From positions 2,976,001-3,040,000 of the forward strand of contig NZ_CP074149.1 of NCBI RefSeq assembly GCF_019968765.1: 64,000 nucleotides of DNA, in the 5' to 3' direction. The notes beneath the pieces are model-generated. The model was not told the origin of the DNA, searched no databases, and worked only from the letters and a program-made list of their open reading frames with translations. The DNA comes from Enterobacter sp. JBIWA008. Lineage in GTDB: Bacteria; Pseudomonadota; Gammaproteobacteria; Enterobacterales; Enterobacteriaceae. The position numbers and the translations under genes were made by a program. This document shows positions 5,860-50,333 of this stretch, piece by piece (within the stretch, counting starts at the first letter, position 1; each line of letters starts with the position of its first letter).

Positions 5860-6512
5860 TGACTTAACAACGTCTCCGCATTACACAAACCATGCCGGAT
5901 GGCCAGATGTGTCAGTTCAACGTCACCATGAATGTTCAGTTTACTGAACATCCGGTAACGGTAGCTGTTCACCGTTTTCGGGCTGAGATTCAACTGTTCC
6001 GAGATCTCATTCACCTTCTGACCTTTGGTGATCATCAGCATAATCTGCAATTCACGCTCGGACAAACTGGCAAAGGGTGATTCGGTTTTCTCGGGCTCGA
6101 TCTGACTCAGCGCCATCTGCTGAGCGATATCGGAAGCAATGTAGCGCTGTCCGGCAAACACAGAACGGATTGCATTGACGACTTCCTGCGGCGCGGCCCC
6201 TTTACTCAGGTACCCCGCTGCGCCCGCCTGCATCACTTTCGCGGGCAGTGGGTTTTCGGTATGCACGGTCAGCATGATGACTTTTGTATCGACAAAGGTA
6301 CGCGCAATTTTGCGTGTTGCTTCAAGACCGCCGATACCGGGCATATTCATATCCATCAGTACCACATCGGCCGAGTTTGTGCGGCACCATTTTACCGCAT
6401 CTTCGCCACAGCAGGCCTCACCGGCAACTTTAATACCTTTAATATCTTCAAGAATGCGTCGTATCCCTGCGCGCACCAGTTCGTGGTCATCAACAAGAAG
6501 GACGTTGATCAA
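5856..6512 (-). CDS. uvrY: BarA-UvrY two-component response regulator
   Basis: UvrY (SirA in Salmonella) is the cytoplasmic response regulator of the sensor kinase BarA. It activates csrB/csrC small RNA transcription and so controls the carbon storage regulator. The receiver domain holds the acidic pair DD at 8-9 and the phospho-acceptor Asp54 in LMDMNMPG. A LuxR-type helix-turn-helix lies at about 143-208 ([21 protein letters not shown]). The 218 residues equal E. coli UvrY. It is the first gene of uvrY-uvrC-pgsA. Confidence 0.97.
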
Positions 6513-6978
6513 AGGAAATGTCTCCAGAATAGGGATAACGCTACTGAGTGATAATTTGGTTTATATTAACGGTTTTTATCACAAGATTAAAACGTTAAAA
6601 AATCGGCTATTCGATTTCCCTCTCGTTTTTGGAAATTAGGCTGTACAGTCCATGGAAAGAGAGACCGTGCATTTAGGGCTTTTGCAGCTTTTTTTAAGCA
6701 TCTGTATTCAAAAAGTTACAAAAAACTTGCAGGCTTTCCCTGCAAAAAAACAGTTCTCAAATTTTTGTAACAATAATTAACGGCAAGCGAACCAGGGGTA
6801 AACAATTAATTGCCATAAACAGCGGCTCAGTTTACCGGCTCGCTTTGTTTACGCAATTAAACACCCGCGTAAAAGTACAAAAAACAACCACTGCATTTTT
6901 TGCGTCAGCTTGTGGTATACTCCGCCGCCTTGACTTTCGTCGTCGCGTTTTAGCGCCGTTAAATAATGAGGAAAATAA
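6513..6978. other. 466-base divergent uvrY/yecF control region
   Basis: No gene is supported in this AT-rich stretch. It must hold the uvrY promoter (minus) and the yecF promoter (plus). A short imperfect inverted repeat with AAAAACTTGCAGG and CCTGCAAAAAAACAG lies at about 6720-6752. I saw no RNA gene that I recognise. Confidence 0.6.
6913..6921 (+). promoter_or_regulatory. Extended -10 element upstream of yecF
   Basis: TGGTATACT is a TGn-extended -10 box 57 bases upstream of the yecF start. No good -35 box lies at the right distance, which is usual for extended -10 promoters. The assignment is by sequence only. Confidence 0.4.
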
Positions 6979-7203
6979 ATGAGCACATCTGAATTTGCCA
7001 CTGCGGAGAATAACCAGGAACTGGCACAGGAAGTCAACTGCCTGAAAGCGCTGCTGACGCTGATGCTGCAGGCGATGGGCCAGGCTGATGCCGGTCGTGT
7101 GATCATTAAAATGGAAAAACAAATCGCGGAGATGGAAGACCAGGCTGAATCAGCAGTATTTGCGAACACTGTTAAGCAAATCAAACAAGCCTACCGCCAG
7201 TAA
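6979..7203 (+). CDS. yecF: DUF2594 family protein YecF
   Basis: This is a small cytoplasmic protein of 74 residues, the E. coli YecF length, with no known biochemical role. It is predicted to be almost wholly helical, with heptad-like spacing ([18 protein letters not shown], then [15 protein letters not shown]) suggesting a short coiled coil. It starts after AATGAGGAAAATAA, which contains a GAGGA ribosome site. It lies between uvrY and sdiA, as in E. coli, where the arrangement is conserved. Confidence 0.93.
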
Positions 7204-9649: not shown

Positions 9650-10672
<1,023 letters not shown>

Positions 10673-12235: not shown

Positions 12236-12955
12236 CTATAACTTACCCAGCTTGGTTCGTAAGCGTTTAATGGCCTGGCTGTGCAGCTGGCTCACCCGCG
12301 ACTCTCCCACCTCCAGAACAGCGCCAATCTCTTTAAGGTTTAGCTCTTCCTGGTAATAAAGGGTCAACACCAGCTGTTCGCGTTCTGGTAAAGCTTCAAT
12401 CGCTTCCATTACGCGCTGGCGTAAATTCCCTTCCATTAAATGGTGTAACGGGTTTTCCTGCTGGTGCTCATCCGTCACCAGCTCGATGCTATCGCCATGC
12501 TCTTCGCGCCACTCGTCGTAAGAGAAGAGTTGGCTATTATTGGTATCGAGCAACATCTGACGATACTCTTCAACAGCAATGCCAAGACGTTCCGCCACTT
12601 CGGTTTCCGTTGCGTTACGTCCCAGTTCCTGTTCCAGCTGCCCCATCGCATGCGCCACTTCGCGCGCGTTGCGGCGAACACTGCGCGGCACCCAGTCACG
12701 GCTGCGCAGCTCGTCCAGCATCGCACCACGAATACGCTGAACTGCGTAAGTCGTAAATGCCGTTCCTTGCAGAGCGTCGTATCGGTCAACTGCATTCAAT
12801 AACCCGATACCGCCCGCCTGTAGCAGATCGTCGAGTTCCACGCTCGCCGGCAAGCGCACCTGGAGGCGCAATGCTTCGTGACGCACCAGCGGGACATAAC
12901 GCTGCCACAGCGAGTGTTTATCCATTACACCTTCAGCGGTATAGAGTGAATTCAC
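12236..12955 (-). CDS. fliA: Flagellar sigma factor sigma-28
   Basis: FliA directs RNA polymerase to class 3 flagellar promoters (fliC, fliD and others) and is held inactive by FlgM until the hook is complete. The 239 residues contain sigma region 2 (VELDDLLQAGGIGLLNAVDRY; AVQRIRGAMLDELRS), region 3 (REVAHAMGQLEQELGR) and region 4 (LPEREQLVLTLYYQEELNLKEIG; SRVSQLHSQAIKRLR). It is the first gene of fliAZ. Its targets in this window are the sigma-28 promoters before fliC and fliD, and probably its own -10 at 12980. Confidence 0.98.
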   Translation of the reverse strand: MNSLYTAEGVMDKHSLWQRYVPLVRHEALRLQVRLPASVELDDLLQAGGIGLLNAVDRYDALQGTAFTTYAVQRIRGAMLDELRSRDWVPRSVRRNAREVAHAMGQLEQELGRNATETEVAERLGIAVEEYRQMLLDTNNSQLFSYDEWREEHGDSIELVTDEHQQENPLHHLMEGNLRQRVMEAIEALPEREQLVLTLYYQEELNLKEIGAVLEVGESRVSQLHSQAIKRLRTKLGKL

Positions 12956-12979: not shown

Positions 12980-12987
12980 GTTATCGG
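12980..12987 (-). promoter_or_regulatory. Sigma-28 -10 element upstream of fliA
   Basis: GCCGATAA, the exact sigma-28 -10 consensus, lies 25 bases before the fliA start. The expected -35 (TAAA-type) at the 11-base spacing is poor, so this is either a weak autoregulatory class 3 promoter or secondary to a FlhDC-dependent one. Confidence 0.5.
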
Positions 12988-13060
12988 CATGATTATCCGA
13001 TTCTGCAGGGCGTTCAATTGGATGAATAGTGGGTAAAATGAGGGGTTATTTGGGGGTTAC

Positions 13061-13087
13061 GGATGCATTTCGACATAACATGCATCC
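13061..13087. repeat. Inverted repeat at the fliA-proximal end of the island
   Basis: GGATGCAT and ATGCATCC, eight-base perfect arms with an 11-base loop, lie just beyond the stop of the last island gene and upstream of fliA. There is no T tract on either strand, so it is not a typical terminator. It marks the boundary between the island and fliA. Confidence 0.5.
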
Positions 13088-13103
13088 TTCAGTAAGAATA
13101 AAG

Positions 13104-13841
13104 TCAGCCTTTTTTGCACAGCAAAAATATGCTTGAACATAAATCCGGGTATTGATGGCCTAACTCGTAGCATCCCTCAAGATATTGCTTAGAGATGATA
13201 TCGGTCTGTAAAAGTTTGTCCCACTGGAAATTAGCGAGCGCCTTGAAGAAAATACCCGTTCGATAAACAACATTTAGGCCGGCAAGACGGGCCTCACTCT
13301 CAAGCGTATCCAGGGAATAAGTGCAGCGATGACCGTGGAGATATTCAGCCTCCGTCACCGCACTATTATGCGAGATTAACCCCATTTTAACGGCAATCTG
13401 CCGGGAGGCCGCATGTGCATTAGGACAGACCAGAAAGAGATATCCGTCATCCGTTAGCCATTCATCATTAATGCGTTTTAAGAGTTTAACGGGATCGTCG
13501 ATATGTTCCAGCACGTGCGTAAGGACAATATTGTCATAGCGTTCCGGCAGTACAACATCCTCAAAGCGGGAATGAACAAACGATATATGTTTACCCAGAC
13601 GCTCGCTAGCGATAGCCATCGCCTCTGCCGAGGCTTCCACGCAGGTGATGGCATCGAATTTTTCAGCAAGGCGTGCCGTAAAATCACCTTTAAAACTCCC
13701 AAGCTCAAGTAAATTACCCGGTTTAAAGAAAGGAGTGAACGCACGAATCATAAAAGGATGCATCACATCAAAATCGAAATTATAGGCATACTGATGATCG
13801 GATGTATCTTTGATTTCCTGATTATAATCACGAAGAGTCAT
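13104..13841 (-). CDS. Class I SAM-dependent methyltransferase of the flagellin island
   Basis: This 245-residue cytoplasmic methyltransferase has motif I LLELGSFKGDF at residues 44-54, an acidic ribose-binding residue in VEAS, and motif post-II/IV IVLTHVLEHIDDP. This is the Methyltransf_11/23 type common in sugar O-methylation. It is the last of eight same-strand genes and overlaps the acetyltransferase gene by 4 bases. By context it probably methylates a sugar or peptide component of the flagellin glycan. The substrate is not shown by the sequence. Confidence 0.8.
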   Translation of the reverse strand: MTLRDYNQEIKDTSDHQYAYNFDFDVMHPFMIRAFTPFFKPGNLLELGSFKGDFTARLAEKFDAITCVEASAEAMAIASERLGKHISFVHSRFEDVVLPERYDNIVLTHVLEHIDDPVKLLKRINDEWLTDDGYLFLVCPNAHAASRQIAVKMGLISHNSAVTEAEYLHGHRCTYSLDTLESEARLAGLNVVYRTGIFFKALANFQWDKLLQTDIISKQYLEGCYELGHQYPDLCSSIFLLCKKG

Positions 13842-14290
13842 GTTGTTTTCTCACTATGCAAGGTCATGGTTTTCTTTGAACCGTTTGAAACGCCGAAGGT
13901 AAACCCATGCTTTAGATATAAACGTTGCGCCGACGCATTATTCTCATCGACTTCAAGATTAATTTCAGCCACACCCAGGCGCTGTAAATGTTCAATGCAT
14001 TGAATCAATAGCTGGCTGCCAAGGCCGCATTGCTGCGCGTCAGGCAAAACGGAAACATTGGTAATAAATCCCAGTTGACGCTGCGCGTTATAATAAGCTG
14101 CAACCAGCCCTGTGAGCGTGTTGTTATGCCAGGCTTCTACTCGCCATGCGCGATCCACTATTTTTTGGGCATAGTCCTCTAACGCAATGACGGCGGTAAT
14201 TGAGGCAATAAAAAACGGGTCACATTGTTTAAAATGGACGACGATCTCCTCCGGAGTAGCGCGATTACGACAAAACGCCCAGCGATTCAT
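13838..14290 (-). CDS. GNAT-family N-acetyltransferase of the flagellin island
   Basis: This 150-residue protein has the GNAT acetyl-CoA-binding signature QQCGLGSQL at residues 86-94, preceded by the beta-4 strand ITNVSVLPD and followed by INLEVDENNASAQRLYLKHGF. It overlaps its upstream neighbour by 4 bases and its downstream neighbour by 4 bases. Next to a sugar aminotransferase, the likely job is N-acylation of an amino sugar, but GNAT proteins have many substrates, so this is inference. Confidence 0.82.
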   Translation of the reverse strand: MNRWAFCRNRATPEEIVVHFKQCDPFFIASITAVIALEDYAQKIVDRAWRVEAWHNNTLTGLVAAYYNAQRQLGFITNVSVLPDAQQCGLGSQLLIQCIEHLQRLGVAEINLEVDENNASAQRLYLKHGFTFGVSNGSKKTMTLHSEKTT

Positions 14291-15252
14291 ATCACCAGTT
14301 CCGCAAGGCCAAAGCCGGCTTTGCCAAATGCATTACCGTTATAGAGCAAATAGACTTTATCATCGCAGCGGAAAAGATGTGGATAGCACTGCATTTCGCT
14401 GTCCCAGTCATCCCCGGACACCAGCGAGGCCATCTGGCTGTCGTCACGATGCCAGTGCTGTAAATCATCAGACCAGGCATAGCCCAGACGATAACCGCGC
14501 CCCTGCCCGGTGCGGAAATCGAAACACTCCCGGAAGCAAAAGACCATATGATACCGACCATTTATTTCAATCACCGTCGGCAGCGCCTGGCATTCGTCAT
14601 CTCCCAGAACAGAAGGGATAATTTGCCTGCTGTCACGCTGCCAGTTTATGCCATCGTTTGATACCGCATGGGCAATTTTATAGATGCGATCCGGTACCGA
14701 ATCGGGCGTGCGCTTTTTCCAGCCCGTGCCAAAGATGTACCACATATGGAAACTTTCACGGGTATAGATAACAAACGCGTCCCCCACCAGATGCGGCTCG
14801 TGCAGCGAGGGCCCCATTACAGGGCCAGTGCCGACGCGAGTGAAGTGTTCGCCATTGTCCGTGCTGACCGCAAGACCTATTGCCGTATCAACCGAGACCG
14901 AAACGCGACGATTCCAGCCCGTTGTCCAGGCCAGGATTTTACCTTCGTGACGCAGGACGTTGCAGGGGAAAATACCGTGTTCATCGAATGTGCCCAGCTC
15001 AGCAGGCGCGATCACCGGCTCGGGGCTGACCCGAAGCACTGCCTGCAGAGATTTATCCATATCCACATAGCAGACCCGGCTTATAAACTTTGCTGAATTT
15101 TCCTCCCGCTCGCGCGTGGAAAAATAAATGCGAACAAAATCATCAAAAACCAGCGCCTGCGGAGACTGGGCAAAACCGACCCCTTTAACCAGAGGAGGAA
15201 ACTGTGACGGCGAATAGATAAGCCCATGCTTATGCCAGTTCAGGGTTAACAT
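14287..15252 (-). CDS. Five-bladed beta-propeller glycosidase-like protein A
   Basis: This 321-residue protein has repeated propeller blades like the GH43/GH32/GH68/GH130 superfamily: GFAQSPQALVFDDFVRIYF, HGIFPCNVLRHEGKILAW, GLAVSTDNGEHF, HAVSNDGINW, GYAWSDDLQHW. No signal peptide is visible, so it acts in the cytoplasm. It is a paralogue of the next upstream gene (15246-16208) with the same blade order, and the two reading frames overlap by 7 bases. Most secreted members hydrolyse glycans. A cytoplasmic pair inside a glycan-building operon more likely binds or rearranges an activated sugar. The function is unknown. Confidence 0.75.
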   Translation of the reverse strand: MLTLNWHKHGLIYSPSQFPPLVKGVGFAQSPQALVFDDFVRIYFSTREREENSAKFISRVCYVDMDKSLQAVLRVSPEPVIAPAELGTFDEHGIFPCNVLRHEGKILAWTTGWNRRVSVSVDTAIGLAVSTDNGEHFTRVGTGPVMGPSLHEPHLVGDAFVIYTRESFHMWYIFGTGWKKRTPDSVPDRIYKIAHAVSNDGINWQRDSRQIIPSVLGDDECQALPTVIEINGRYHMVFCFRECFDFRTGQGRGYRLGYAWSDDLQHWHRDDSQMASLVSGDDWDSEMQCYPHLFRCDDKVYLLYNGNAFGKAGFGLAELVI

Positions 15253-16208
15253 AATTTGCCCTCAAGTTCTGCCAGTCCAAAGCCGTAGCGCCCTACCTGA
15301 TCCCCCAGATAAGCCATATAAATCTTGCCATCCAGTTCGAAGACGTGCGGGTAGCTGATCATTTCTGCATCCCATCCGGAAGCAGAAACATCAATACCTG
15401 CTTTGCTATCATCCCGATGCCACGCGATCATATCCAGGCTCCATGCGTAGCCAATGCGGTAACCGTTCTGTTTTCCGCGGTAATGGGTGCTGTAGCGGTA
15501 GCAAAAAAACATGTGGTATTTGCCGTTGGCGTAAAAGACATCCGGACTGGCCTGCGCCTCGTCCTCTTCTATACGGCTGGGGATCAGATCTTTATTCAGC
15601 TTCGTCCAGTTGATGCCATCCTCAGATGTCGCCATGCGAATCTTGTAGACCGGTTCAGCGCGGCCATCCACCCACTTCCATTTGCGCCCGGCAATATAAA
15701 AAAGCTGCCATTGGTTATTGAATCTGCGAATTTTAGGCCCACTCATCACGAACGGTTCATCCGGAGAATAACCAATTGCCGGCCCAGGCCCCGCTTTAAC
15801 GAAGGTCTCCCCCTGGTCATGGCTTACCGCCATGCCTATTGCCACGTTGAAGGGCACGGACTCACATCGCGTCCAGCCTGCATACCAGGCCTTTACCACA
15901 TCGTTATCGCGCATCACGGAGACGGGATAGGTACCAAACTCGTCAAATTCTCCGTATCCGCCCAGCGGGAGAATAGGTTCGCGGGCAAAGCCTAATACGT
16001 TGAAGAGGTCATCACGGGCCAAATCTACCCAGGCGGAGTAGCTGACATATTTCCCCTGTTCATCGGCAGGCGGGCGGCAGGAGAAATAGACGCGCACGAA
16101 ATCATCAAAGATCAGCGTCGCGGGGGCCTGCGCAAACTCTTTAAGCCATGGGAGATGGGTCACCTCCTGCGGGGTAAAGACCTTCCCCAATTTTTTCCAT
16201 GTAAACAT
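15246..16208 (-). CDS. Five-bladed beta-propeller glycosidase-like protein B
   Basis: This 320-residue paralogue of the neighbouring protein A shares corresponding blades: EFAQAPATLIFDDFVRVYF, FDEFGTYPVSVMRDNDVVKAW, GMAVSHDQGETF, MATSEDGINW, GYAWSLDMIAWHRDDSKAG, and the C-terminal GFGLAELEG. It has no signal peptide. Acidic residues typical of the superfamily (for example FDEFG, SPDEP, EDEAQASPD) recur at matching places in both proteins, but I cannot say which are catalytic. It starts 1 base after the WbqC-like gene. It probably arose by tandem duplication and then diverged. The function is unknown. Confidence 0.75.
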   Translation of the reverse strand: MFTWKKLGKVFTPQEVTHLPWLKEFAQAPATLIFDDFVRVYFSCRPPADEQGKYVSYSAWVDLARDDLFNVLGFAREPILPLGGYGEFDEFGTYPVSVMRDNDVVKAWYAGWTRCESVPFNVAIGMAVSHDQGETFVKAGPGPAIGYSPDEPFVMSGPKIRRFNNQWQLFYIAGRKWKWVDGRAEPVYKIRMATSEDGINWTKLNKDLIPSRIEEDEAQASPDVFYANGKYHMFFCYRYSTHYRGKQNGYRIGYAWSLDMIAWHRDDSKAGIDVSASGWDAEMISYPHVFELDGKIYMAYLGDQVGRYGFGLAELEGKLC

Positions 16209-16209
16209 A

Positions 16210-16908
16210 TTAAATTAACTCATAACCACGTTGCAGGCGACGAACTACCTCATCGCGAGGGTTAAACATCATGACGTCAATAATCGACAGCCAGGGGATA
16301 AACTCTGCGTCAGAATGCGGGTAGTGCCACGGCTGCGGCTGTATAAATTGCAGTTCAAGCCCGCGTTCGTCGAAGTCCTGCCGGGAATAGAGCGCCATAC
16401 CTCCCGGGGGATTAATATACGTACGGGCGTTCATCGCCTGACAAATATCAATGACGCGATCCTGGGACTTTAAGGCGTGATTCGCCGGTAACGAAGACGA
16501 AACAATCAGCTCGCAGGATAAGCCGAAATAATCCCTCAGCCCGGTCAGCCCATGCCACAGATAATTAAAAAGGTTATCGTCCGGATTCTGAATAATGTCC
16601 TCAACTACCGGCATTACCGCGGAAAACCAGGGCGCGTGGCGGTACGCACCAACAATCTGATTGCACAGCTTATTGCGGTCAAACGCAGCCGAGAGCTGCC
16701 GCTCTCTGATATCCAGAAAGTCTGAGTCTTTTTTTAACGGCAGCGAAATTAACAACTCCGCGCCGCGAGCCTGGATACGGTTACGGTTAATCCACCCTTT
16801 TTTCGTGTACTTAATGTTGTCATACACCACGAAAGCATCCACTGCCGCCATCAGCTGGAAATAGCCACAATACGGGAAAAAATAGGGCTGCATGATCGCG
16901 AGCTTCAT
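16210..16908 (-). CDS. WbqC-family protein
   Basis: This 232-residue protein begins with the family signature MQPYFFPYCGYFQLM and has further conserved parts DNIKYTKKGWINRNRI and INPPGGMALY. WbqC-like proteins are found in O-antigen and other surface-glycan clusters. Their biochemical role has not been settled to my knowledge; a part in acylation or assembly of an amino sugar has been considered. It sits between the sugar aminotransferase (12-base gap) and the propeller pair, so it probably acts on the same sugar nucleotide. Confidence 0.85.
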   Translation of the reverse strand: MKLAIMQPYFFPYCGYFQLMAAVDAFVVYDNIKYTKKGWINRNRIQARGAELLISLPLKKDSDFLDIRERQLSAAFDRNKLCNQIVGAYRHAPWFSAVMPVVEDIIQNPDDNLFNYLWHGLTGLRDYFGLSCELIVSSSLPANHALKSQDRVIDICQAMNARTYINPPGGMALYSRQDFDERGLELQFIQPQPWHYPHSDAEFIPWLSIIDVMMFNPRDEVVRRLQRGYELI

Positions 16909-16920
16909 CGGTTTCCCTTC

Positions 16921-18075
16921 CTATCCATTGACGACCAGCGCAGGCTCTGCTGCACGGGAGGCATCTATAAACAAGTCCTGGATAATCTCAATGATGCGAC
17001 GCTGATCGGCCACCAGCAGGCCTGGATAGATTGGCAGGCAGAGCACCGCATGAGAAATTTCGTCCGCAACCGGGAGATTCTGCACATTAGCCGTCGGGAA
17101 GTGGCGATACATCGGGAATGCGCTGATCAGCGGATAGAAATAGCGCCGGGCATAGATATTATGCTTGCGCAGCTCCGTATAGATGGCATCCCGGCTTACC
17201 GCGGAATCTGCGCGAATAAGCACCGGGAAATAGGAGTAATTCCATTCAATATTACCGGCAGGCTTAATGTACTCCAGCGCAGGGAGCGTGGAATCGAGCA
17301 GCTCAACGTAACGTTGATAGATAATTGCGCGTTCCTGCAGCGCGCTATCAATATACTTCAACTGCAAAAGCCCCATCGCCGCCTGCACTTCATTCATTTT
17401 GGCGTTAATACCCGGCGCCATCACAATGGTTTCATCGGCAAAACCAAAGTTTTTAAGGTAATCGATACGCTGTTTGGTTTTGGCGTCATGGCAAATAATG
17501 GCTCCCCCTTCGAAGGTATTAAACACCTTCGTTGCGTGGAAGCTCAGCACGGATAAATCGCCATAATTAAGGATGCTGGCGTTATCTTGCTTGACCCCGA
17601 AACAGTGGGCCGCATCGTAGATCACCTTCAGGCCATAGGTATCGGCAATTTTCTGGATGCGCTCCATGTCGCAAGGAATGCCATAGCAGTGGACCGGCAT
17701 GATGGCTGTCGTTTTTGGGGTAATCAGCTCTTCAATGCGGTCCGGATCGATATTAAAGGTAACGGGGTCAATATCGGCAAAGACCGGCGTTAAATCATTC
17801 CACAGCAGGCTGTGAGAGGTGGCGACAAAGGAGTACGGCGTGGTGATCACTTCGCCGGTAATACGCAATGTCTGAAGCGCCGTCAGCAGTGCAAGCGTGC
17901 CGTTGGAGAACAGGCAGACATACTTCACGCCCAGATACGCCGCCAGCGCCTCTTCCAGCTGCTGGTGGAATTGCCCGCTGTTAGTCAAAATTTTACTTTC
18001 CCACAAGGTCTCCAGATAAGGGATAAACTCCTCAAGTGGCGGAAGAAGTGGACTGGTAACGTAGACATTTTTCAT
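16921..18075 (-). CDS. DegT/DnrJ/EryC1-family sugar aminotransferase, VioA-like
   Basis: This PLP-dependent transaminase (384 residues) puts an amino group on a keto-sugar nucleotide. The PLP-binding Lys183 is in LSFHATKVFNTFEGGA, and the upstream PLP contacts are in YDAAHCFG (Asp154, His157). The N-terminal pattern (VTSPLLPPLEEFIPYLETLW, then LFSNGTLALLTALQTLRI) resembles the VioA class making dTDP-4-amino-4,6-dideoxyglucose (viosamine). That subfamily assignment is from memory. The needed dTDP-4-keto-6-deoxyglucose could come from rmlA/rmlB elsewhere in the genome. It is coupled to its neighbours by short gaps of 3 and 12 bases. Confidence 0.85.
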   Translation of the reverse strand: MKNVYVTSPLLPPLEEFIPYLETLWESKILTNSGQFHQQLEEALAAYLGVKYVCLFSNGTLALLTALQTLRITGEVITTPYSFVATSHSLLWNDLTPVFADIDPVTFNIDPDRIEELITPKTTAIMPVHCYGIPCDMERIQKIADTYGLKVIYDAAHCFGVKQDNASILNYGDLSVLSFHATKVFNTFEGGAIICHDAKTKQRIDYLKNFGFADETIVMAPGINAKMNEVQAAMGLLQLKYIDSALQERAIIYQRYVELLDSTLPALEYIKPAGNIEWNYSYFPVLIRADSAVSRDAIYTELRKHNIYARRYFYPLISAFPMYRHFPTANVQNLPVADEISHAVLCLPIYPGLLVADQRRIIEIIQDLFIDASRAAEPALVVNG

Positions 18076-18078
18076 AAG

Positions 18079-21000
18079 TTAATCCTCAGTACCTGATACC
18101 CGGAAACTGCGAGGTGCCTCATCAGAACACCATTTTCGCCAGGCCTCACGAAGGGCCTGCTGGAAAGGAATCGCCACGTTGCTCTGGCCCTGCGGTGGGA
18201 TTGTGCTCCGCATCTTCTGGCGCAGGGCGTTGAGGGTTTCCAGGCGGGTTTGCCAGCTAACGGCTTTGTCGAAATAGTCCTGCTGACTTTCCGCCACAAA
18301 TTCATCCAGCCCGTAGATATGCATGATCTCCAGCCCCTGCCGCGCGGGATAGGTTGCCCCTGCCAGGGTAAGCGTCGGGACACCCATCCATATGCCATGG
18401 CTGGTGGTGGTTCCCCCGTTGTACGGGAAGGAATCAAGCAATATGTCTACCTCATGATGCATATGAAGATAGGACTCCAGCCCCGTCGTTTTACGGAAGA
18501 TAAGCTGCTCATCCGATACGCCCAGCGCATTTAGCTTTTTGCGGTAGCGGGCGATCATCGCATCGTCATCCATAAAGCCAATCAGCAAACGTGACGTGGC
18601 GTTATGCAGCAGAATGCGCGCCCACAGCGCAAAGACCTGGTCATTCAATTTCTTAGGGCGGTTGAAGCTACCGTAGGTAAACCAGCCGTTCGTCAGGGCT
18701 GGCAAGGCATTGACGTCAGGGCTGCAGGCATCCGGCTCGAAGAAGTTATCGAGTGGAATCGCGATCAGCTTTTCAGTGAACTGAGCGTCTATCGCTGCAT
18801 TCCTGACAAACCCGGTACTGATAATGCGGTAATCCATCTGCCGCATCCCGGTCGTGCCCGGATAGCCGAGCCAGGTGATTTGCACCGGCGCAGGCTTAAA
18901 GGCAAACGCGGGTAAACGCGTCCCGGTGGTGTGGCCTGAGAGGTCAAAAAGAATATCGATACCGTCGCTGTGGATCTGTTTTGCCAGCTCAACGTTATTG
19001 AGATGGGTAACGGATAACCACTTCGTGGAGGTGCTACGGAAGTGCTCCGTAACGGCATCATCTTTGTCCAGCGTGCTATATCCGTAGAGGGAAAACTGCT
19101 TCCGATCCATGCCGTCCCAGAACGGGCGCAGGAAGCGGCTTACGGGATGGTTACGGAAATCTCCGGAGACAAAGCCTACGCGCAGCGGCCGCTCGGGATC
19201 CTTGCTACCCTGCCACGTCAGCGACAGGTCGAATTTTTTCGCCCACGCGGCCACCAGTTCGCCATAGGCAAGATGGCGTTCGAAGAGCACGTCCGGGGAG
19301 ATAGAAAAGTCGTGGGTAAGAACAAACAGCAGGCTGGTGAAGCAGTCAAAATCACCCGGCGCAAACTCGAGCGATTTCTCGAGGAAATAGCGTGCTTCCG
19401 TCAGTTTCTGATTATCACTGAGAATAATGCCCATCATCGCAAGATGAAGCGGATTCGTGGCGTTATAGCGCAAAGACTCCCTTGCGCAGCGTTCAGCCAT
19501 GGCCATATTGCGACGCGTGTGATAAACCACCGCCAGCGTATTCCAGAATGACGCATTATGTTTATTTAGCCGCAGCAGCGCCTGCAGGATCCGGGCGGCA
19601 TAATGCAGCTCGCCTTTTTTCTGCAACACGGTTGCCAGATCAAACCAGATATCCTGTCCGGCAGAGTAGCGGCTCATGAGCTGACAGAGTGACGATAGCG
19701 CCTCATCCCAGTCGCCCATCAGCAGGCTGGCGCGGGAAGCGCAGCGAAGCATGTGCAGATTATGGGGATCGTTCTCAATCTGTCCCGTTATGTAATCGCG
19801 CGCGTCTTTCGCCAGACCAGCGGCAATCAGGGCGTTTACGTTTTGGTAGATGAGATCGATGGCAGGATCCTGTTCAGCCCTCTCCTCTACCATTATCTGC
19901 CCGTCCGCCAGTAAACCGCCCTGTTGCGACCCGACGTTAAGCAGTAATAGCGTCTCAATGCTGCGTTTGAGGTAGTCGACATCCCCCAGACGCAGAAAAC
20001 GCTGCTGTGCTTTGCGCCACGCTTGAGGGGCACCCTTCAACAGCCCTTTCGCTTTCAGTGCAGAAAAACGCTCGCTGCATCTGGCCTGATTCACATCCAT
20101 GCCCGCAACCGCGAACTCTCGCTCGTCATCACTGAGGGTCACACGCTCCCCCCAGAGATTAAGCGTGACGTCTGCGCCTTGCCCCGCCGGAAGGGGTGCA
20201 ATTAACGTGAGTTCACCCTCAGGCTGAACATTGTACGGCCCAGGTGAACCCGCCCAGTGCAGCCCCGGAATTTGGTTGAGAAACAGATCTTTCAGAGACT
20301 CAAGCACCTGCTGGGCGACATTTTCCTCTTTTTCGGGAAGGCGAGCGTTGAACACCAGCTGATCAAACGACAGGCTCAGCGGCCATGCGCCGCCAAGGAG
20401 ATCGAGAATGTGCAGCGTCGTGTTATTTTGCGTCGAGAAAAACTTCCCTTCCGCATTGGTGTGAGCATTGACGACCTCGCCGCGATCGTTACGGCAGCGC
20501 CTGAAATCCCCAGCCCAGTGCAGCGTGTTTAACCGGGTAAAATCTAGCGCCGCCGCGTTAGCGACATCATCACGGGAAAGGAGGCTGACGCGTTCGCGAC
20601 GGTTGACGGCAAAATCAAGGTATTGCTGAGCGGCTGTCGACGCCTGCCCCGATGACACCAGCGTATGCAGCTGATGAATGTGCTCGCTAACGCTCTCCCC
20701 GCTTTCGTACTGAGGAACTGCGTCCCCCACGTAGCGCAACCCGTATGAGGTGAGACTCTCGTTAAATTGATTGAACTGAGCGTAGGTCAGCGTGGCGCGT
20801 GCCATAGCGTCGAGAAGGACGGCGTCTTCAGCGCGTTCCATCGTGAGCACATGTTGTTTGATTTCGCCTTCCGGCTGGGTCAATGCCAGATAGCTGAGCA
20901 TGCCCCGAGCGAACGCAACCTTCTCTTCAGGCCGATCCGCCAGACGCGCATGGAAAGCCAACGCATCCTGAACATATTCTGCCGCAGATTCTGGGGGGGT

Positions 21001-21414
21001 AAAGACCTGATGGAAGGCAATGATCCCCTGTGCTGAAAGGTGCCGACGACACCACTTCAGCAACGCGTCTCGCTCTGCCATGCCAGCAGGAATAAAGCTC
21101 CCGCGAATCAGAATGTAATCGAACTCTCCCGGTGACACGTTCAGCACGTCGTTAAGCCCTGCCGCAACCAGTTCGATCTGGGTGATACCCAGACGCTGCG
21201 CCTGTCGTTGCCCCTCGGCAATAGCGTTTTCGCTGAGTTCGATACCAATCCCGACACAGCCTGGCCATGCCAGAGCGGTGGATAATAACGCATCACCATG
21301 CCCACAGCCTAAATCAAGGACGCGCGCACTCGCGGGCGCCCCGGCATGGAACTGATACAGGGCAGCTGCAGCCTGTAAACCCGATAGCGTAAATCGATTA
21401 TCTGGATACAACAT
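18079..21414 (-). CDS. Methyltransferase-TPR-GT41 (SPINDLY/OGT-like) fusion protein
   Basis: This is a very large cytoplasmic protein of 1111 residues. Residues 30-150 form a class I methyltransferase domain (motif I VLDLGCGHG at 32-40, IGIELSENAI). Residues of about 160-490 match a methyltransferase-regulatory region. About 535-700 are helical TPR-like repeats (FWNTLAVVYHTRRNMAMAERC, LHLAMMGIILSDNQKLTEARYF). Residues 743-1095 are a family GT41 catalytic domain: GDFRNHPVSRF with His756 matching the OGT NHP motif, TWLGYPGTTG, SFNRPKKL with Lys922 at the OGT lysine position, and DSFPYNGGTTTS at 994-1005. GT41 enzymes attach sugars to Ser/Thr of proteins, so this is the best candidate for the flagellin O-glycosyltransferase. 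The start is 3 bases or fewer from no alternative, and the gap to the upstream gene is 27 bases. Confidence 0.85.
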   Translation of the reverse strand: MLYPDNRFTLSGLQAAAALYQFHAGAPASARVLDLGCGHGDALLSTALAWPGCVGIGIELSENAIAEGQRQAQRLGITQIELVAAGLNDVLNVSPGEFDYILIRGSFIPAGMAERDALLKWCRRHLSAQGIIAFHQVFTPPESAAEYVQDALAFHARLADRPEEKVAFARGMLSYLALTQPEGEIKQHVLTMERAEDAVLLDAMARATLTYAQFNQFNESLTSYGLRYVGDAVPQYESGESVSEHIHQLHTLVSSGQASTAAQQYLDFAVNRRERVSLLSRDDVANAAALDFTRLNTLHWAGDFRRCRNDRGEVVNAHTNAEGKFFSTQNNTTLHILDLLGGAWPLSLSFDQLVFNARLPEKEENVAQQVLESLKDLFLNQIPGLHWAGSPGPYNVQPEGELTLIAPLPAGQGADVTLNLWGERVTLSDDEREFAVAGMDVNQARCSERFSALKAKGLLKGAPQAWRKAQQRFLRLGDVDYLKRSIETLLLLNVGSQQGGLLADGQIMVEERAEQDPAIDLIYQNVNALIAAGLAKDARDYITGQIENDPHNLHMLRCASRASLLMGDWDEALSSLCQLMSRYSAGQDIWFDLATVLQKKGELHYAARILQALLRLNKHNASFWNTLAVVYHTRRNMAMAERCARESLRYNATNPLHLAMMGIILSDNQKLTEARYFLEKSLEFAPGDFDCFTSLLFVLTHDFSISPDVLFERHLAYGELVAAWAKKFDLSLTWQGSKDPERPLRVGFVSGDFRNHPVSRFLRPFWDGMDRKQFSLYGYSTLDKDDAVTEHFRSTSTKWLSVTHLNNVELAKQIHSDGIDILFDLSGHTTGTRLPAFAFKPAPVQITWLGYPGTTGMRQMDYRIISTGFVRNAAIDAQFTEKLIAIPLDNFFEPDACSPDVNALPALTNGWFTYGSFNRPKKLNDQVFALWARILLHNATSRLLIGFMDDDAMIARYRKKLNALGVSDEQLIFRKTTGLESYLHMHHEVDILLDSFPYNGGTTTSHGIWMGVPTLTLAGATYPARQGLEIMHIYGLDEFVAESQQDYFDKAVSWQTRLETLNALRQKMRSTIPPQGQSNVAIPFQQALREAWRKWCSDEAPRSFRVSGTED

Positions 21415-21441
21415 TCAGGGAGAGTTCCGTGAGTTCAGGGG

Positions 21442-22860
21442 TTAACAAAAATAGGTTTGTTGCATAGCGGCTTTATAGTTCTGATACGCTTCGCCACCTG
21501 ATTTTTGCGTGGTCACTGTCCAGCTGAACGTGTCGTCGGTGTAGCGAATGTCGATCAGTTTTTCCAGCGGTTCGCGATGAACCGCCATCTGCTCAACCGC
21601 AGGCAGCGCATCCAGAGAGACCGACAGTGCGACCTGGTCGAGGAACCATTCCGCGTTGCCGCGGCGTAAATTCCAGTCAATGAAGGTCGCAACAAGCGAA
21701 AGATATTTACGTGAAAGCGCGCCCGGGGACGTGTAGACAAAGCCTGCGGGAACCTGCTCCCACGGCGGTGCGCCGTTGCTGTACGAGAGGACAATCTCAC
21801 TCTGCGGGAAATGTTGCTTCATATCGGCCCAGTTCTTACGAACCAGACAATCCGCATCAAGTACCATAATCGGCGCGGTGAATACGCTCAGCGCATAGCT
21901 GAGGAAAACAAAACGCCTTGAGGCGTACCAGACGTTGATACCAAAAACGGGTGCAATCTTTTCGGCCGTCGCGGAAATCACCATGCCCGGAAAACGCTGG
22001 TGCAGCGCATGAACGTGCGCCGCTGTCTCATCATCAGGGTTATAAAGATGCAGGTGGACGTTAAGCTGGCTGCCGTTGGTGTGGTAGATCGATCCTAACA
22101 GCGTCAGGGCGTGATCGAAATAATAGCGCTTGTCACAGGCGACAAGAACCGTGGTTTTTCCATTTTCTTCGGCAGGAAGAAGCCACTCGTAGTGCGAAAA
22201 ATCAGGCTCGTAATCAGCCATTTTCAATGCGGAAAAATCGATGAACGATTCAGGGCAGCCACCCAGCTTATGAATTCCCATGACGATCATCATCATAGTG
22301 AAAGTATCTTCACCAATATGTTCAGGATTGGCTGTCAGCTGCTGAATAAGGGTCTGTATCTGATTAAAGTCATCTTCCATCAGACACACTAGCAGCAATA
22401 TTTTCATCACGGCCGGGGATGGGTTGACCACCGCGTAGTAATTTGAAATCAGGAATAGCGCGGCTTCGATTTCGTTGATACGAAAGAAGACCTGAATACC
22501 CGCCACCAGAAGATTAATACTGTCGTCGTGCTGGATTGCCTCGACGATCCAGCCGGTAATGGTTTCGCTCAGCTCTTTCGAAAATGGCGTTGGCTTACCT
22601 TGATTTTTAAAATCAAACGCGGCGTTTGCGGCAGCAATCGCGCACAGCATGCGCTTAACGGCGAGTTCTTTATGCGCATCCAGATCGGTCGTTGCATCCA
22701 TGATCTGGGGTTCGAGCGTGGAAATATCAGAATTTTTATAGTGCAGGATTTCGGTCACAATATGCGCAGGCAATGCATCCGTTTCTGGCAAAAAAATTAG
22801 CCGCGAAAATTCGTCACGGTAAAACTGATGCAGCGATCGTGTACGCTCGAACTTGTTCAT
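21442..22860 (-). CDS. GT-A-like glycosyltransferase, first gene of the island
   Basis: This protein has 472 residues from the ATG at 22860. Residues 1-230 are helical and TPR-like. Residues 235-460 look like a GT-A/GT8-type fold with TTVLVACDKRYYFDHAL and the DxD metal/nucleotide-sugar motif in MVLDADCLV (Asp335, Asp337). An in-frame start at 22932 would add 24 residues. I prefer 22860 because MNKFERTRS begins a well-formed helix and an AAGAG sequence lies about 9 bases upstream. It is the first gene after the fliC terminator, so it opens the island transcript. It probably adds a sugar to flagellin or extends the glycan. Confidence 0.72.
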   Translation of the reverse strand: MNKFERTRSLHQFYRDEFSRLIFLPETDALPAHIVTEILHYKNSDISTLEPQIMDATTDLDAHKELAVKRMLCAIAAANAAFDFKNQGKPTPFSKELSETITGWIVEAIQHDDSINLLVAGIQVFFRINEIEAALFLISNYYAVVNPSPAVMKILLLVCLMEDDFNQIQTLIQQLTANPEHIGEDTFTMMMIVMGIHKLGGCPESFIDFSALKMADYEPDFSHYEWLLPAEENGKTTVLVACDKRYYFDHALTLLGSIYHTNGSQLNVHLHLYNPDDETAAHVHALHQRFPGMVISATAEKIAPVFGINVWYASRRFVFLSYALSVFTAPIMVLDADCLVRKNWADMKQHFPQSEIVLSYSNGAPPWEQVPAGFVYTSPGALSRKYLSLVATFIDWNLRRGNAEWFLDQVALSVSLDALPAVEQMAVHREPLEKLIDIRYTDDTFSWTVTTQKSGGEAYQNYKAAMQQTYFC

Positions 22861-22973
22861 CCCGATACTCTTAGTCAGATTGCGATTCTCACCCATCGTA
22901 CAAGGGAATATCCGGGATAATGGAAGGAACACCCCCGGAAATAAGGGCTTATTTCGGAGATTGTCTGGCGGGC

Positions 22974-23008
22974 AAAAAAAAAGGTTGCTGTTTCCAGCAA
23001 CCTTTTTT
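22974..23008 (-). terminator. fliC terminator
   Basis: AAGGTTGCTG and CAGCAACCTT form a 10-base stem with a 4-base loop, followed on the minus strand by nine T. It begins 16 bases after the fliC stop and lies between fliC and the glycosylation island, so island expression needs read-through or its own promoter. Confidence 0.9.
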
Positions 23009-23024: not shown

Positions 23025-23861
23025 TTAACGCAGCAGGGACAGCATAGCCTGTGGAACCTGGTTTGCCTGAGACAGTACAGAAGTACCAGCCTGCTGCAGG
23101 ATCTGCGCGCGAGACATGTTGGAAACTTCGGTAGCGTAGTCAGCGTCCTGGATACGGGACTGAGCAGCAGACAGGTTGTTGATAGAGTTGTTCAGGTTGT
23201 TGATGGTAGATTCGAAACGGTTCTGAATCGCACCCATGTTAGAACGCGCGGTATCAATTTTCGCGATTGCAGCATCAGCAGCAGAGATAACAGCCTGTGC
23301 AGAGGCGTTATCGGAGATTGCAGTGCTCAGGCCAGCGCTCAGAGTACCAGAGGTCGCGTTGATCAGCGCGTTGCTGTCGATGGAGATGGTGTCGTTTGCA
23401 GAAGTACCTGCACCAACCTGAATTTTCAGCGCGGTAGATACGGAACCGTCCAGCAGTTTCTTACCGTTGAAGTTAGCTGAGCCCGCGATACGGTCGATTT
23501 CAGCCAGACGCTGTTTGATTTCAGTGTTTACTGAAGTCAGGTCAGAAGAGCCGTTGGTGTCGGTAGCAGCCTGAACAGACAGCTCACGAATACGCTGTAA
23601 GTTGGTGTTGATTTCGTTCAGGTTACCTTCAGCAGTCTGAACCAGGGAGATACCGTCGTTAGCGTTACGTGCCGCCTGGGTCATACCTTTAACCTGGGAG
23701 GTCATGCGGTTAGCAATCGCCTGGCCAGCAGCGTCATCTTTCGCGCTGTTGATACGCAGACCAGAGGACAGACGCTCGATAGCAGTGCCCAGAGAAGACT
23801 GAGATTTGTTCAGGTTGTTCTGAGTGGTCAGGGACAACAGGTTAGTATTGATAACTGCCAT
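23025..23861 (-). CDS. fliC: Flagellin, short form
   Basis: This is the filament subunit exported through the flagellar type III apparatus. At 278 residues it is far shorter than E. coli K-12 flagellin (498). The N-terminal D0/D1 domain (INTNLLSLTTQNNLNKSQS; LSSGLRINSAKDDAAGQAI; GISLVQTAEGNLNEI) and the C-terminal D1/D0 domain (MGAIQNRFESTINNL; QILQQAGTSVLSQAN) are intact, including the conserved TLR5-contact region. The outer D2/D3 domains are reduced to about 60 residues (about 135-200) rich in Ser, Thr, Ala and Asn, a plausible glycosylation zone. It has its own sigma-28 promoter and terminator. Confidence 0.97.
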   Translation of the reverse strand: MAVINTNLLSLTTQNNLNKSQSSLGTAIERLSSGLRINSAKDDAAGQAIANRMTSQVKGMTQAARNANDGISLVQTAEGNLNEINTNLQRIRELSVQAATDTNGSSDLTSVNTEIKQRLAEIDRIAGSANFNGKKLLDGSVSTALKIQVGAGTSANDTISIDSNALINATSGTLSAGLSTAISDNASAQAVISAADAAIAKIDTARSNMGAIQNRFESTINNLNNSINNLSAAQSRIQDADYATEVSNMSRAQILQQAGTSVLSQANQVPQAMLSLLR

Positions 23862-23934: not shown

Positions 23935-23961
23935 TTATCGACGGGTCTGAATAAGACTTTA
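23935..23961 (-). promoter_or_regulatory. Sigma-28 promoter of fliC
   Basis: On the minus strand TAAAGTCT and GTCGATAA are separated by exactly 11 bases. Compared with the consensus TAAAGTTT-N11-GCCGATAA there is one mismatch in each box. It lies about 74 bases upstream of the fliC ATG. Confidence 0.92.
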
Positions 23962-39820: not shown

Positions 39821-40074
39821 AAATAAAACGTGTAAAACATCTTCCAGGATATATCTGACGCGGTTTAATTGTTTCTAACCACCTCACAATACTTAATATT
39901 TACTTTACTTTAAGAAGATTCCTGGCAAATTATACGTAACTTTACGGGATAGTGAGTCCGCCTGAAAGTCTTTGTCATGCTCACAGGTTTATTATTTTTT
40001 TTCCATCCCGTATGGCTGTTTTGAGCTCTCAGGCAGATGGTGAATTATCGTTACGCATTGAGTGAGGGTATGCC

Positions 40075-40698
40075 ATGTCAACGATCATTATGGATTTATG
40101 CAGCTACACCCGGCTAGGGTTAACCGGGTACCTGGCAAGCAGAGGGGTAAGAAAGAGAGACATCAACGATGCACACACCGTTGACGAACTCGCAGCCGCT
40201 TGTGACGAACTAAAACCAGGCGTGGTGTTTATTAATGAGGACTGTTTCATTCACGATCCAGCCAACAGTCAGCACATTAAGCAAATCATTAATCAGCATC
40301 CAAAAACCCTGTTTATTGTTTTTATGGCGATCGCGAATATCCATTTCGATGAGTATTTGTTGGTCCGTAAAAATTTATTGATCAGTTCTAAATCGATTAA
40401 ACCCGAGTCGCTGGATGACATTTTGGGTGATTATTTGAATAAAGAAGTTAAAAATGTAGGAGCGGTTAACTTGCCCACCCTATCATTAAGCAGGACTGAA
40501 TCAAGTATGCTGCGAATGTGGATGGCGGGACAAGGAACTATTCAAATCTCTGACCAGATGAATATTAAAGCGAAAACCGTTTCGTCACACAAAGGAAATA
40601 TTAAACGGAAAATTAAAACGCATAATAAGCAAGTGATCTACCATGTGGTACGCCTGACCGATAATGTGACGAACGGGATTTTCGTCAACATGCGTTAG
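40075..40698 (+). CDS. rcsA: Capsule/colanic acid regulator RcsA
   Basis: RcsA is a LuxR-family auxiliary regulator that pairs with RcsB to activate capsule genes. It is short-lived because of Lon and its synthesis is raised by DsrA. It has 207 residues. There is an unusual N-terminal domain without a receiver Asp, and a C-terminal helix-turn-helix ([43 protein letters not shown]). An RcsAB box lies upstream. It follows fliR as in E. coli. Confidence 0.97.
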
Positions 40699-40727
40699 TC
40701 GCTTAAGACCCTGTGCACCCTACCTTT

Positions 40728-40754
40728 GATCTCTGGCCTGGCCAGAGATTTTTG
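40728..40754 (+). terminator. rcsA terminator
   Basis: ATCTCTGG and CCAGAGAT arms with a short loop are followed by TTTTTG, 30 bases past the rcsA stop. Confidence 0.75.
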
Positions 40755-40800
40755 CTTCCAGAGAGGTTGTCGGGCATGCGATGTGCTACCCGACCCCGTG

Positions 40801-41346
<546 letters not shown>

Positions 41347-48392: not shown

Positions 48393-49094
48393 TCAATTGC
48401 GCAAACTGCGACGGAAGTGGCTCAACACCTGGCTATCCAGCCCGATGCAGTCGCCGTGTAATTCGGCACTGAGTTTCGCCATAAACTGGATCAGGAAATC
48501 GGCATTGTGACGTGCCAGCTCGCGGCCCATTTCCGTTTGCATTGTATCAGGCAATCGCAGCAGCTTGGTCTGAAAATGGTCGAGGGCAAACGCACGGTCG
48601 TCAAGTGTACGCGCGTCGGCAAAGGGATCGTCAGCATCAAAAAGCGGCACGCCCAGTGCGCCCGAGACGGCAAAGACGCGCGCCAGGCCGATAGCGCCTA
48701 AGGCTTCCAGCCGGTCTGCGTCCTGCACGATTTTGGCCTCCATACTCTGCGGCGCAATCCCGGCGCTGAAGCTGTGCGCCTCAATCGCGTGAGTAACGGC
48801 GGCAGCGTGCTCTGGCGGGAAGTCAGGGAAGTCGCAGCGCAGAATGTCACGCGTCCTGCGCGCTGCCAGCTGTGATGACCGGCTGCGTTCGGGATGGTTT
48901 TTCGGCAGGCTGACAATATCGTGGAAATAGCATGCGGTCAGGATCACCAGCGGCTCTACCCTCTGGCGATCCATGATTTTTTGCGCCGTCATCCAGACCC
49001 GACGAAAATGCGAAATATCATGTGCGGTATCGTCGGTACTGTGGTTTTCCTCGAGCCAGCGCTCAAATCTTTGCTGCCACCGGGCAAGTTCCAT
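48393..49094 (-). CDS. yedJ: HD-domain phosphohydrolase YedJ
   Basis: This HD-superfamily metal-dependent phosphohydrolase has 233 residues from the ATG at 49094, chosen because AGGA lies 7 bases upstream and the start [14 protein letters not shown] matches E. coli. The metal ligands are His and His-Asp in [12 protein letters not shown] and [13 protein letters not shown], then HAIEAHSF and [11 protein letters not shown]. The substrate is unknown. The gene is next to the porin pseudogene, as in E. coli. Confidence 0.95.
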
Positions 49095-49377
49095 CGTCAT
49101 ATCCTGTTGTTTAAAAGAGCAGGAATTATAACACAGCGAATTAAACCAATTAAAAAACAGAACACCGAAATACTTAATAATAATTATACCATGTAAATTC
49201 AATAGATTAATTCATTTGAAAAATGAAGAGATTAATAGAGATATTTGGCAATATTTCATCGAATTTAATTACATTTATTTTTGAAACTAAATAACATCTT
49301 CTGGAATAGTATCGCCCCCGTAATTACGGAGAGTAATTACATATATTTATATAAATTATCCTTTAAGGGAATATATA

Positions 49378-50333
49378 ATAAAAAGAAAAGCTCTGGCAAT
49401 TGTGGTACCCGCTTTATTAATGGCAGGCGCAGCAAATGCGGCTGAAATGTACAACAAAAACGGCAACAAAGTTGACCTGTACGGTAAAGTCGATGCGCGT
49501 CACACCTTCTCTGACAACGCTGGCGACGACGGCGACGAAACCTATGTGCAGATTGGTTTCAAAGGCGAAACCCAGATCGCTAACGACCGGATCGGTTACG
49601 GCCAGTGGGAATACAAAACCTACGCTAACGATACCGAAGGCGCGGGTGACAAATCGTTTAACCGTCTGGCATACGCTGGTCTGAAATATGGCGAATACGG
49701 TTCATTTGATTATGGCCGTAATTACGGCGTCCTGTACGACGTAGAAGCCTGGACCGATATGCTGCCAGTATTTGGCGGTGACTCTTACACCTGGACCGAT
49801 AACTTTATGAACGGTCGTGCTAACGGTCTGGCCACCTACCGTAACCAGGATTTCTTCGGTCTGGTTGAGGGTCTGAATTTTGCGCTGCAGTATCAGGGTA
49901 CAAACGAAGGTCAGGCGCCGGTTTTGCCGGTGGCGATAAAGCTGAAGCCTGGACCGTTGGCGCAAAATACGATGCAAACAACGTTTACCTGGCGATGATG
50001 TATGCGGAAACCCGCAACATGACGCCAATCGGTAGCGTGGGTATCGCTAACCAGACTCAGAACTTTGAAGCGGTTGCACAGTACCAGTTCGACTTCGGTC
50101 TGCGTCCTTCCCTGGCATGGGTTTATTCAAAAGGTAAAGACCTGGACGGTCAGGGATTCAATCAGGATCTGGTTAACTACATCGACCTGGGCATGACCTT
50201 CACCTTCAACAAAAACTTCTCCACCTATGTTGATTACAAGATCAACATGCTGGATGACGATGAAGCGCTGTATGACGCACACGGTATTTCCACCGATGAC
50301 ATCGTCGGCGTCGGCATGACCTACCAGTTCTAA
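49378..50333 (+). pseudogene. yedS: OmpC/OmpS-type porin pseudogene (yedS/ompS locus)
   Basis: The reading frame encodes a general porin signal peptide ([20 protein letters not shown]) and mature start ([21 protein letters not shown]), but the codon where ATG should be is ATA at 49378, after a normal AAGGGA ribosome site. The first frame runs to a stop at about 49998. From about 49915 porin sequence continues in another frame ([18 protein letters not shown]) to the intact C-terminal GVGMTYQF. Roughly 50-60 residues normally found between QYQGTNEG and this point are missing, so there is both a deletion and a frameshift. The position after yedJ matches E. coli ompS (yedS), also a pseudogene in K-12. 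Confidence 0.88.

Follow-up and report, generated by a model that had tools for sequence, protein, structure and literature searches.

The 64,000-nucleotide stretch of Enterobacter sp. JBIWA008 analysed here (contig NZ_CP074149.1, positions 2,976,001 to 3,040,000; hereafter the window) carries eight genes between the flagellar genes fliC and fliA. Most likely their products synthesise an unusual amino sugar, which probably bears an amino acid, and transfer it to flagellin. We read the insert as a modular flagellin O-glycosylation island whose pathway runs through WbqC-dependent aminoacylation of 4-amino-4,6-dideoxyglucose (Qui4N), a reading to which we assign a probability of roughly two in three. 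The island is ordinary in kind and unusual in content, being a probable flagellin glycosylation island (FGI) with a trans-phylum cassette as its tail. In order of transcription, the genes and their flanks are as follows.

fliC, 23025..23861, minus strand: 278-aa flagellin without a D2/D3 insert, the proposed acceptor.
Gene 1, 21442..22860, minus strand: 472 aa, with a helical, TPR-like N-terminal part and a putative GT-A-like C-terminal part.
Gene 2, 18079..21414, minus strand: 1111 aa, fusion of methyltransferase, TPR and GT41 (SPINDLY/OGT-like) parts.
Gene 3, 16921..18075, minus strand: VioA-type dTDP-4-keto-6-deoxyglucose 4-aminotransferase (DegT family, 332 bits).
Gene 4, 16210..16908, minus strand: WbqC family (PF08889, 221.9 bits against a gathering cut-off of 21.3).
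Gene 5 (P1), 15246..16208, minus strand: propeller-type protein, GH130-like by profile.
Gene 6 (P2), 14287..15252, minus strand: propeller-type protein.
Gene 7, 13838..14290, minus strand: GNAT acyltransferase (PF00583).
Gene 8, 13104..13841, minus strand: SAM-dependent methyltransferase (PF13489).
fliA, 12236..12955, minus strand: downstream flank of the island.

The eight minus-strand open reading frames (ORFs) occupy the interval from fliC to fliA at the positions given in the initial annotation, with successive gaps of 164 bp (fliC to gene 1), 27, 3, 12, 1, −7, −4 and −4 bp, and finally 148 bp (gene 8 to fliA), 27 bp being the largest intergenic gap within the set. Since three congeners carry all eight at full length, with ratios of nonsynonymous to synonymous substitution (dN/dS) of 0.021–0.249, chance or decayed ORFs were rejected as an explanation of the set. 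Most of the domain calls made earlier also stood: the methyltransferase-TPR-GT41 fusion, DegT, WbqC, GNAT and methyltransferase were recovered with Pfam and the propellers were GH130-type by profile, the exception being the GT-A label of gene 1.

The pathway would start from dTDP-4-keto-6-deoxyglucose, which we assume to be supplied by RmlA and RmlB; an rmlB gene was found elsewhere in the same genome. Gene 3 would aminate this intermediate to dTDP-Qui4N, as its likeness to VioA suggests: it is 64% identical to the E. coli O116 enzyme over 368 residues and 55% identical to that of E. coli O121, and its best PDB match is 2po3. It falls short of the NCBIfam model TIGR04427 (DesI), scoring 285 bits against a curated cut-off of 650. 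Among 5426 E. coli genomes, 153 contain DNA matches, and the 20 matches listed are annotated as VioA or DegT.

The next step is the one that the initial annotation had missed, namely the likely chemistry of WbqC. The predicted structure of WbqC resembles the BshC fold, a match that rests on a second look with VIA-align, itself drawing on the ranking from Foldseek, and we propose that gene 4 is an amino acid:amino-sugar ligase of this fold that would form an amide between an amino acid and the 4-amine of Qui4N. Q7, G15, R42 and Y164 are invariant across 29 WbqC sequences. No BshC model was among the 15 Pfam families matched by any of these 29 members at E ≤ 5, and PDB profile searches with WbqC and gene 1 returned no credible match. 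Glycine would be the best guess for the amino acid, from E. coli O121, whose Qui4N is N-acetylglycyl according to the consulted part of a review (PMC3210612). The same source gives E. coli O116 for N-acetyl, and E. coli O116 has vioA and an acyltransferase with no WbqC. By residue masses, N-acetylglycyl-Qui4N would weigh 244.11 Da (Qui4N 145.07, glycyl 57.02, acetyl 42.01), rising to 258.12 with one methyl group and 272.14 with two; calculated likewise, unmethylated N-hydroxybutyryl-Qui4N comes to the 231 Da given for it in PMC3927599. An unlikely reading, but the one that survives best among the alternatives, is that flagellin is indeed glycosylated while WbqC is no aminoacyl ligase: it would work as a nucleotidyltransferase-like enzyme or a simple acyl-transfer one, leaving acylation of Qui4N to the GNAT alone. 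PF08889 is termed functionally uncharacterised in PMC5532660 (in the part available), and no account of WbqC as a ligase was found among the papers listed in our literature searches. As a separate observation, one genus genome (L155 of G184, 9683-10387) has a WbqC gene (36%) directly behind fliC, away from the aminotransferase of its fliA-fliD interval.

Gene 7 would then acylate the free amine of the attached amino acid, and we propose that it caps the amino acid. It gives a weak NCBIfam match, below cut-off, to the mycothiol synthase MshD, and is 30% identical over 97 aa to the GNAT of E. coli O121. The two propellers, P1 and P2, would act jointly on the sugar once it is acylated. They share 42% identity and a set of invariant acidic residues that includes D89, E151, E217 and D280; neither has a signal peptide on inspection by eye. 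P2 scores above, and P1 below, the Pfam thresholds for both Glyco_hydro_130 and Glyco_hydro_32N, the GH130 (PF04041) scores being 28.6 and 18.7 bits against a gathering cut-off of 26. A joint P1/P2 profile matches solved GH130-type enzymes (7fip, a beta-mannobiose phosphorylase, E 6e-11; 9fj8, E 1.1e-8) as well as anhydro-galactosidase and beta-fructosidase structures, families with a five-bladed fold. The pair may conceivably be glutaminyl-cyclase-like. The propellers, together with gene 1, are the weakest parts of the pathway.

Methylation of the product would fall to gene 8, which we propose methylates the sugar or the acyl group, and/or to the N-terminal domain of gene 2. Residues 13-305 of gene 2 match PDB entries labelled as protein lysine methyltransferases 1 and 2 (E 1.3e-19 and 1.2e-17), and a methyltransferase regulatory domain is present in this region, which would fit a bifunctional gene 2 whose methyltransferase domain acts on lysines of flagellin instead of on the sugar, flagellin then receiving methyl groups as well as the glycan. 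We consider this improbable: likeness among such methyltransferases leaves the substrate unfixed, and methylation of the sugar is suggested by gene 8 as well as by the FkbM gene that another tail carries (below).

The GT41 part of gene 2 scores 154.9 bits with PF13844, against a cut-off of 25, and among solved relatives is nearest in sequence to SPINDLY and to a bacterial TPR protein structure. We propose that gene 2 is the flagellin O-glycosyltransferase, which would act in the cytoplasm, ahead of export, and transfer the sugar to Ser/Thr of a FliC that lacks D2/D3, with its TPR part docking the flagellin. Gene 1 would be an accessory or, possibly, the second transferase of the core. It has no significant Pfam match. 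Its putative GT-A label derives from a conserved LDADC stretch and from weak, sub-threshold matches to sugar-transferase models in a few of 24 relatives (PF03407 in two, best E 0.039). Of 8000 candidates scored, 76 are relatives of gene 1, the named ones being enterobacterial save for one Pseudomonas and one Vagococcus entry.

To follow the island through the genus we used 61 genomes, the window's own included; fliA and fliD were both found in 60, and ORFs were called in the 59 other fliA-fliD intervals after fetching, two of which were limited to 19.9 kb. In two loci this ORF calling masked P1 with an antisense ORF; other searches find P1 whole there. The interval spans 1.4 to 19.6 kb across the 60 genomes. 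A gene-2 match (E ≤ 1e-30) is present in 19 of the 61 genomes, and in all 19 it lies between fliA and fliD. Genes 1–3 occur together in 14 of the 60. All 14 of these core-bearing genomes, and none of the other 46, have a FliC that shares 84% identity or more with that of the window (p 6e-14, a value that overstates independence because the species are related). The nearest FliC sequences among the 46 are 82% identical (over a 98-aa ORF) and 81% identical. The aligned flagellins of this type lack the D2/D3 insert. This match between a gene set and a single flagellin type is comparative support for a flagellin acceptor.

The same comparison bears on whether GT41 instead transfers GlcNAc or another housekeeping sugar, as the main sections of PMC4875605 would have it, with genes 3–8 decorating that sugar later or acting elsewhere. 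OGT belongs to GT41. Moreover, while gene 1 always accompanies gene 2 (14 of 60 genomes), five genomes have a gene-2 match without gene 1, and three of them (L144, L147 and L148) have no other island ORF called, which argues that such a transferase can use a donor that the island does not make; in L147 and L148, two of the 19, the match is confined to the GT41 part. Against this, a VioA-type gene shares the interval with the gene-2 match in 15 of the 19 genomes, and the best solved sequence relative is SPINDLY, not OGT. We hold the housekeeping-sugar alternative to be slightly less probable still than lysine methylation.

Behind the core of genes 1–3 lie three alternative tails. The tail of the window, WbqC-P1-P2-GNAT-methyltransferase, is found in four genomes, and P1 in four of the 61. 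A second tail, also in four genomes, holds an ATP-grasp protein, a GFO/IDH/MocA oxidoreductase and an FkbM methyltransferase (by Pfam, on L151 only), and a third, longer one, in six genomes, holds a hexapeptide acyltransferase, an SDR, an AMP-binding enzyme and LuxC (by Pfam, on four ORFs of L161 only). By these family assignments each of the three tails contains a candidate acylator of the VioA amine. Another genus genome (L160, G154:C2:176265-191625) is an O121-like triad alone at the flagellin site: its fliA-fliD interval encodes VioA-type (72%), WbqC (54%) and GNAT (46%) proteins and other glycosyltransferases, with no propellers or gene-8 methyltransferase called. Two further arrangements were seen in these intervals. 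Five fliC-like ORFs occur between fliD and fliA in L145, L146, L165 and L166, and in the last two they immediately precede a glycosylation core. In twelve genus genomes (L131-L142) a 274-aa FliC is followed by a 331-419-aa ORF, possibly FliB, which has no Pfam match in L134.

Most of the eight-gene set is a portable cassette that is found in distant bacteria, mostly among other surface-sugar genes. A profile search of genome contigs with P1 gave 157 confirmed loci, of which the best 80 were kept, many of them ending short. P1 is 68-81% identical to the window's across the 80. In these loci, picked by P1, WbqC precedes P1 and P2 directly follows it in 80 of 80, and the order aminotransferase-WbqC-P1-P2-GNAT-methyltransferase is complete on one strand in 56. 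By their record titles the loci come from Proteobacteria, Bacteroidetes, Nitrospirae, Acidobacteria and other groups, with many metagenome-assembled genomes among them, and RmlA and/or RmlB genes lie in the fetched DNA of 10 of the 80 loci. Among 295 genomes of the family, P1 at E ≤ 1e-120 occurs in two, the window's own and G482; in G482, too, P1 lies between fliC and fliA, and a gene-1 relative stands there between the aminotransferase and WbqC. A GT41-like match accompanies the cassette in 11 of the 13 loci that show a flagellar gene in the DNA covered, versus 7 of the 67 others (Fisher p 1.9e-7, relatedness ignored). For the 42 loci that extend beyond 9 kb in both directions, the corresponding counts are nine of 10 flagellar and three of 32 non-flagellar loci. 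An aminotransferase-WbqC pair in L098/L099 (G034) has both genes apparently broken.

On a quick tree of 85 rows, in which gains are indistinguishable from losses and twelve rows have an odd letter make-up, 12 changes are required to explain the flagellar label, no fewer than eight of them forced by starred branches, and still 12 without the short loci that lack flagellar genes. Since shuffled labels need 16.4 on average, the label is partly clustered. The tree separates G482, but an approximately unbiased (AU) test does not reject a grouping of the six flagellar rows from enterics as a single clade (p 0.271). We therefore dropped the idea that the window's genus acquired the cassette separately from Buttiauxella (L016) and G482, and claim no independent acquisition within the enterics.

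A number of points weigh against our reading. The initial annotation had named, as evidence contrary to it, the eight genes occurring mainly in O-antigen clusters that lack a flagellar link. Half of this holds: the cassette of genes 3–8 lies mainly apart from flagellar genes, 67 of the 80 loci showing none in the DNA covered, whereas within the genus all 19 gene-2 matches lie between fliA and fliD. These 67 loci, with GT2 enzymes, Wzx flippases and ABC exporters as their frequent neighbours, would suit a cassette that serves a surface polysaccharide and for which fliC-fliA is merely an insertion hot-spot, yet the eight genes hold no Wzx, Wzy or polysaccharide glycosyltransferase by Pfam and the core is wholly associated with one flagellin type, so that a polysaccharide-only island was rejected as the principal reading and we regard this alternative as very improbable. 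WbqC itself is not tied to aminotransferases everywhere: 7 of 15 other gammaproteobacterial WbqC genomes show none within about 1.5 kb. Because BshC activity was unshown in vitro as of PMC4360819 (in the part available), the fold match suggests, and does not prove, a ligase. The E. coli O121 model is an imperfect guide, as its cluster serves lipopolysaccharide, its listed features include neither propellers, gene-8 methyltransferase nor GT41, and its asnB and serine O-acetyltransferase genes could bear on the acyl group; the product here thus need not be N-acetylglycyl. The glycosyltransferase label of gene 1 is tentative, and one core-bearing genome (G178) has its gene-2 match divided between two ORFs. 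More generally, the earlier proposal that an amino-deoxy sugar is made, acylated, methylated and placed on flagellin gained comparative support (VioA identity, the flagellin-type match and the linkage of GT41 to flagellin-associated cassettes), while every chemical step, the amino acid and the acceptor are things that we infer.

Expression of the island is the last of these points. Three signals were located around it.

Hairpin with A/U tract, 22977..23008, minus strand: 3′ of fliC and read as the fliC terminator (minimum free energy −20.1 kcal/mol, z −3.06).
Sigma28-like fliC promoter, 23935..23961, minus strand: 11 of 12 matches to the consensus.
Sigma28-like site upstream of fliA, 12981..13007, minus strand: 10 of 12 matches to the same consensus.

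The hairpin is strong, and of the six minus-strand sequences that best match sigma28, none falls in the gap that separates fliC from gene 1; these signals do not explain how the island is expressed. A consensus scan found 11 promoter-like sites against 11.3 expected and 13 terminator-like sites against 12.5 expected, and the fliC hairpin is absent among its sites. The G+C content of the ten 1-kb steps from 13001 to 23000 averages 0.52 (hand mean), against 0.545 for the whole window; according to the main sections of PMC4875605, the G+C content of enterobacterial FGIs is usually lower than that of the genome as a whole (−5.2% on average, from −17.7 to +4.0). Elsewhere in the window, four 1-kb steps with a G+C of 0.44-0.46 (6001-7000, 40001-41000, 49001-50000 and 57001-58000) are possible further inserts.

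If our reading is true, it would give PF08889 a mechanistic role and provide small soluble enzymes with which to assay BshC-type ligation of an amino acid to an amino sugar, the mechanism of BshC being still open in the consulted part of PMC4360819. It would also suggest that flagellin islands diversify by swapping tails behind a constant transferase/aminotransferase core that is matched to a single flagellin, one of these tails being common to polysaccharide loci of several phyla. A flagellin without the usual variable domains would then be predicted to carry a peptide-like glycan. More tentatively, and with the odds slightly against it, WbqC proteins may be widespread stand-alone BshC-like ligases, VioA-WbqC-P1-P2-GNAT-methyltransferase a trans-phylum N-(acyl-aminoacyl) Qui4N cassette that has repeatedly become linked to flagellin, and the propellers a new two-subunit enzyme acting on the aminoacyl sugar.

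Collectively, our results place the island, by location and gene content, among the enterobacterial FGIs, which are inserts between fliC and fliA that carry a glycosyltransferase and sugar biosynthesis genes, both of which are present here. The combination, which the initial annotation did not recognise as characterised, is not without precedent: such islands were surveyed in 2016 and found in 307 of 2,000 Enterobacteriaceae (De Maayer & Cowan 2016, PMC4875605), and Dickeya zeae WH1 has a fliA-fliC insert of seven likewise-annotated genes (methyltransferase, glycosylase, WbqC, DegT, a methyltransferase-regulatory-domain protein and two hypotheticals; PMC9650423, compared by its annotated gene list only, not by sequence). 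In the main sections of the survey, methyltransferase-bearing GT41 enzymes and DegT aminotransferases are common, methyl- and acetyltransferases occur, content is variable and clusters are exchanged piecewise, all as here. Unlike our island, those of the survey are not credited in its main text with WbqC, GNAT or TPR, and its main sections describe neither a core-and-tail plan nor a match to one flagellin type nor a trans-phylum cassette. Flagellin glycosylation has reportedly been demonstrated in related Dickeya and Pectobacterium, and P. atrosepticum SCRI1043 is reported to combine a seven-gene island with a flagellin without domains 2 and 3 (PMC12310338, in the part available). In the viosamine island of P. 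syringae, VioA likewise makes dTDP-Qui4N, and N-acylated, 2-O-methylated Qui4N is placed on flagellin (PMC3927599, in the part available). There, however, the Qui4N caps rhamnose and VioB, VioS, VioR and an acyl carrier protein (ACP) make the acyl group, whereas here WbqC, GNAT and the propellers would take their place; the Pfam and NCBIfam matches of the eight genes include no family of the VioB/VioS/VioR/ACP set, the P. syringae sequences themselves being uncompared.

Outside flagellar loci, the O-antigen cluster of E. coli O121 (L170) shares the block rfbB-rfbA-VioA type-WbqC-GNAT. The E. coli O123/O186 cluster (L168:8944-12708) has the order DegT-WbqC-324-aa protein-GNAT-MaoC; the 324-aa protein was rejected as a propeller relative, as it does not match P1 or P2, and no O123/O186 O-antigen structure was found in the literature, judged from a listing alone. 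The chemistry that we propose is analogous to that of the BshC and MshC-MshD systems, in which an amide is formed between an amino acid and an amino sugar and acetylation follows (PMC4360819, in the part available), and WbqC would share the BshC fold. BshC differs in showing no sequence-family match to WbqC, in its greater length (540 residues in 4wbd) and in its substrate, the one proposed here being nucleotide-linked Qui4N. For the transferase the closest parallel in layout is FlmG of Caulobacter. FlmG uses a pseudaminic acid donor, and a methyltransferase domain goes unmentioned in the available part of PMC7591256. Like FlmG, gene 2 joins a TPR part and a GT-B glycosyltransferase (GT41 here) in one protein, a layout that, on the FlmG precedent, is able to glycosylate flagellin.

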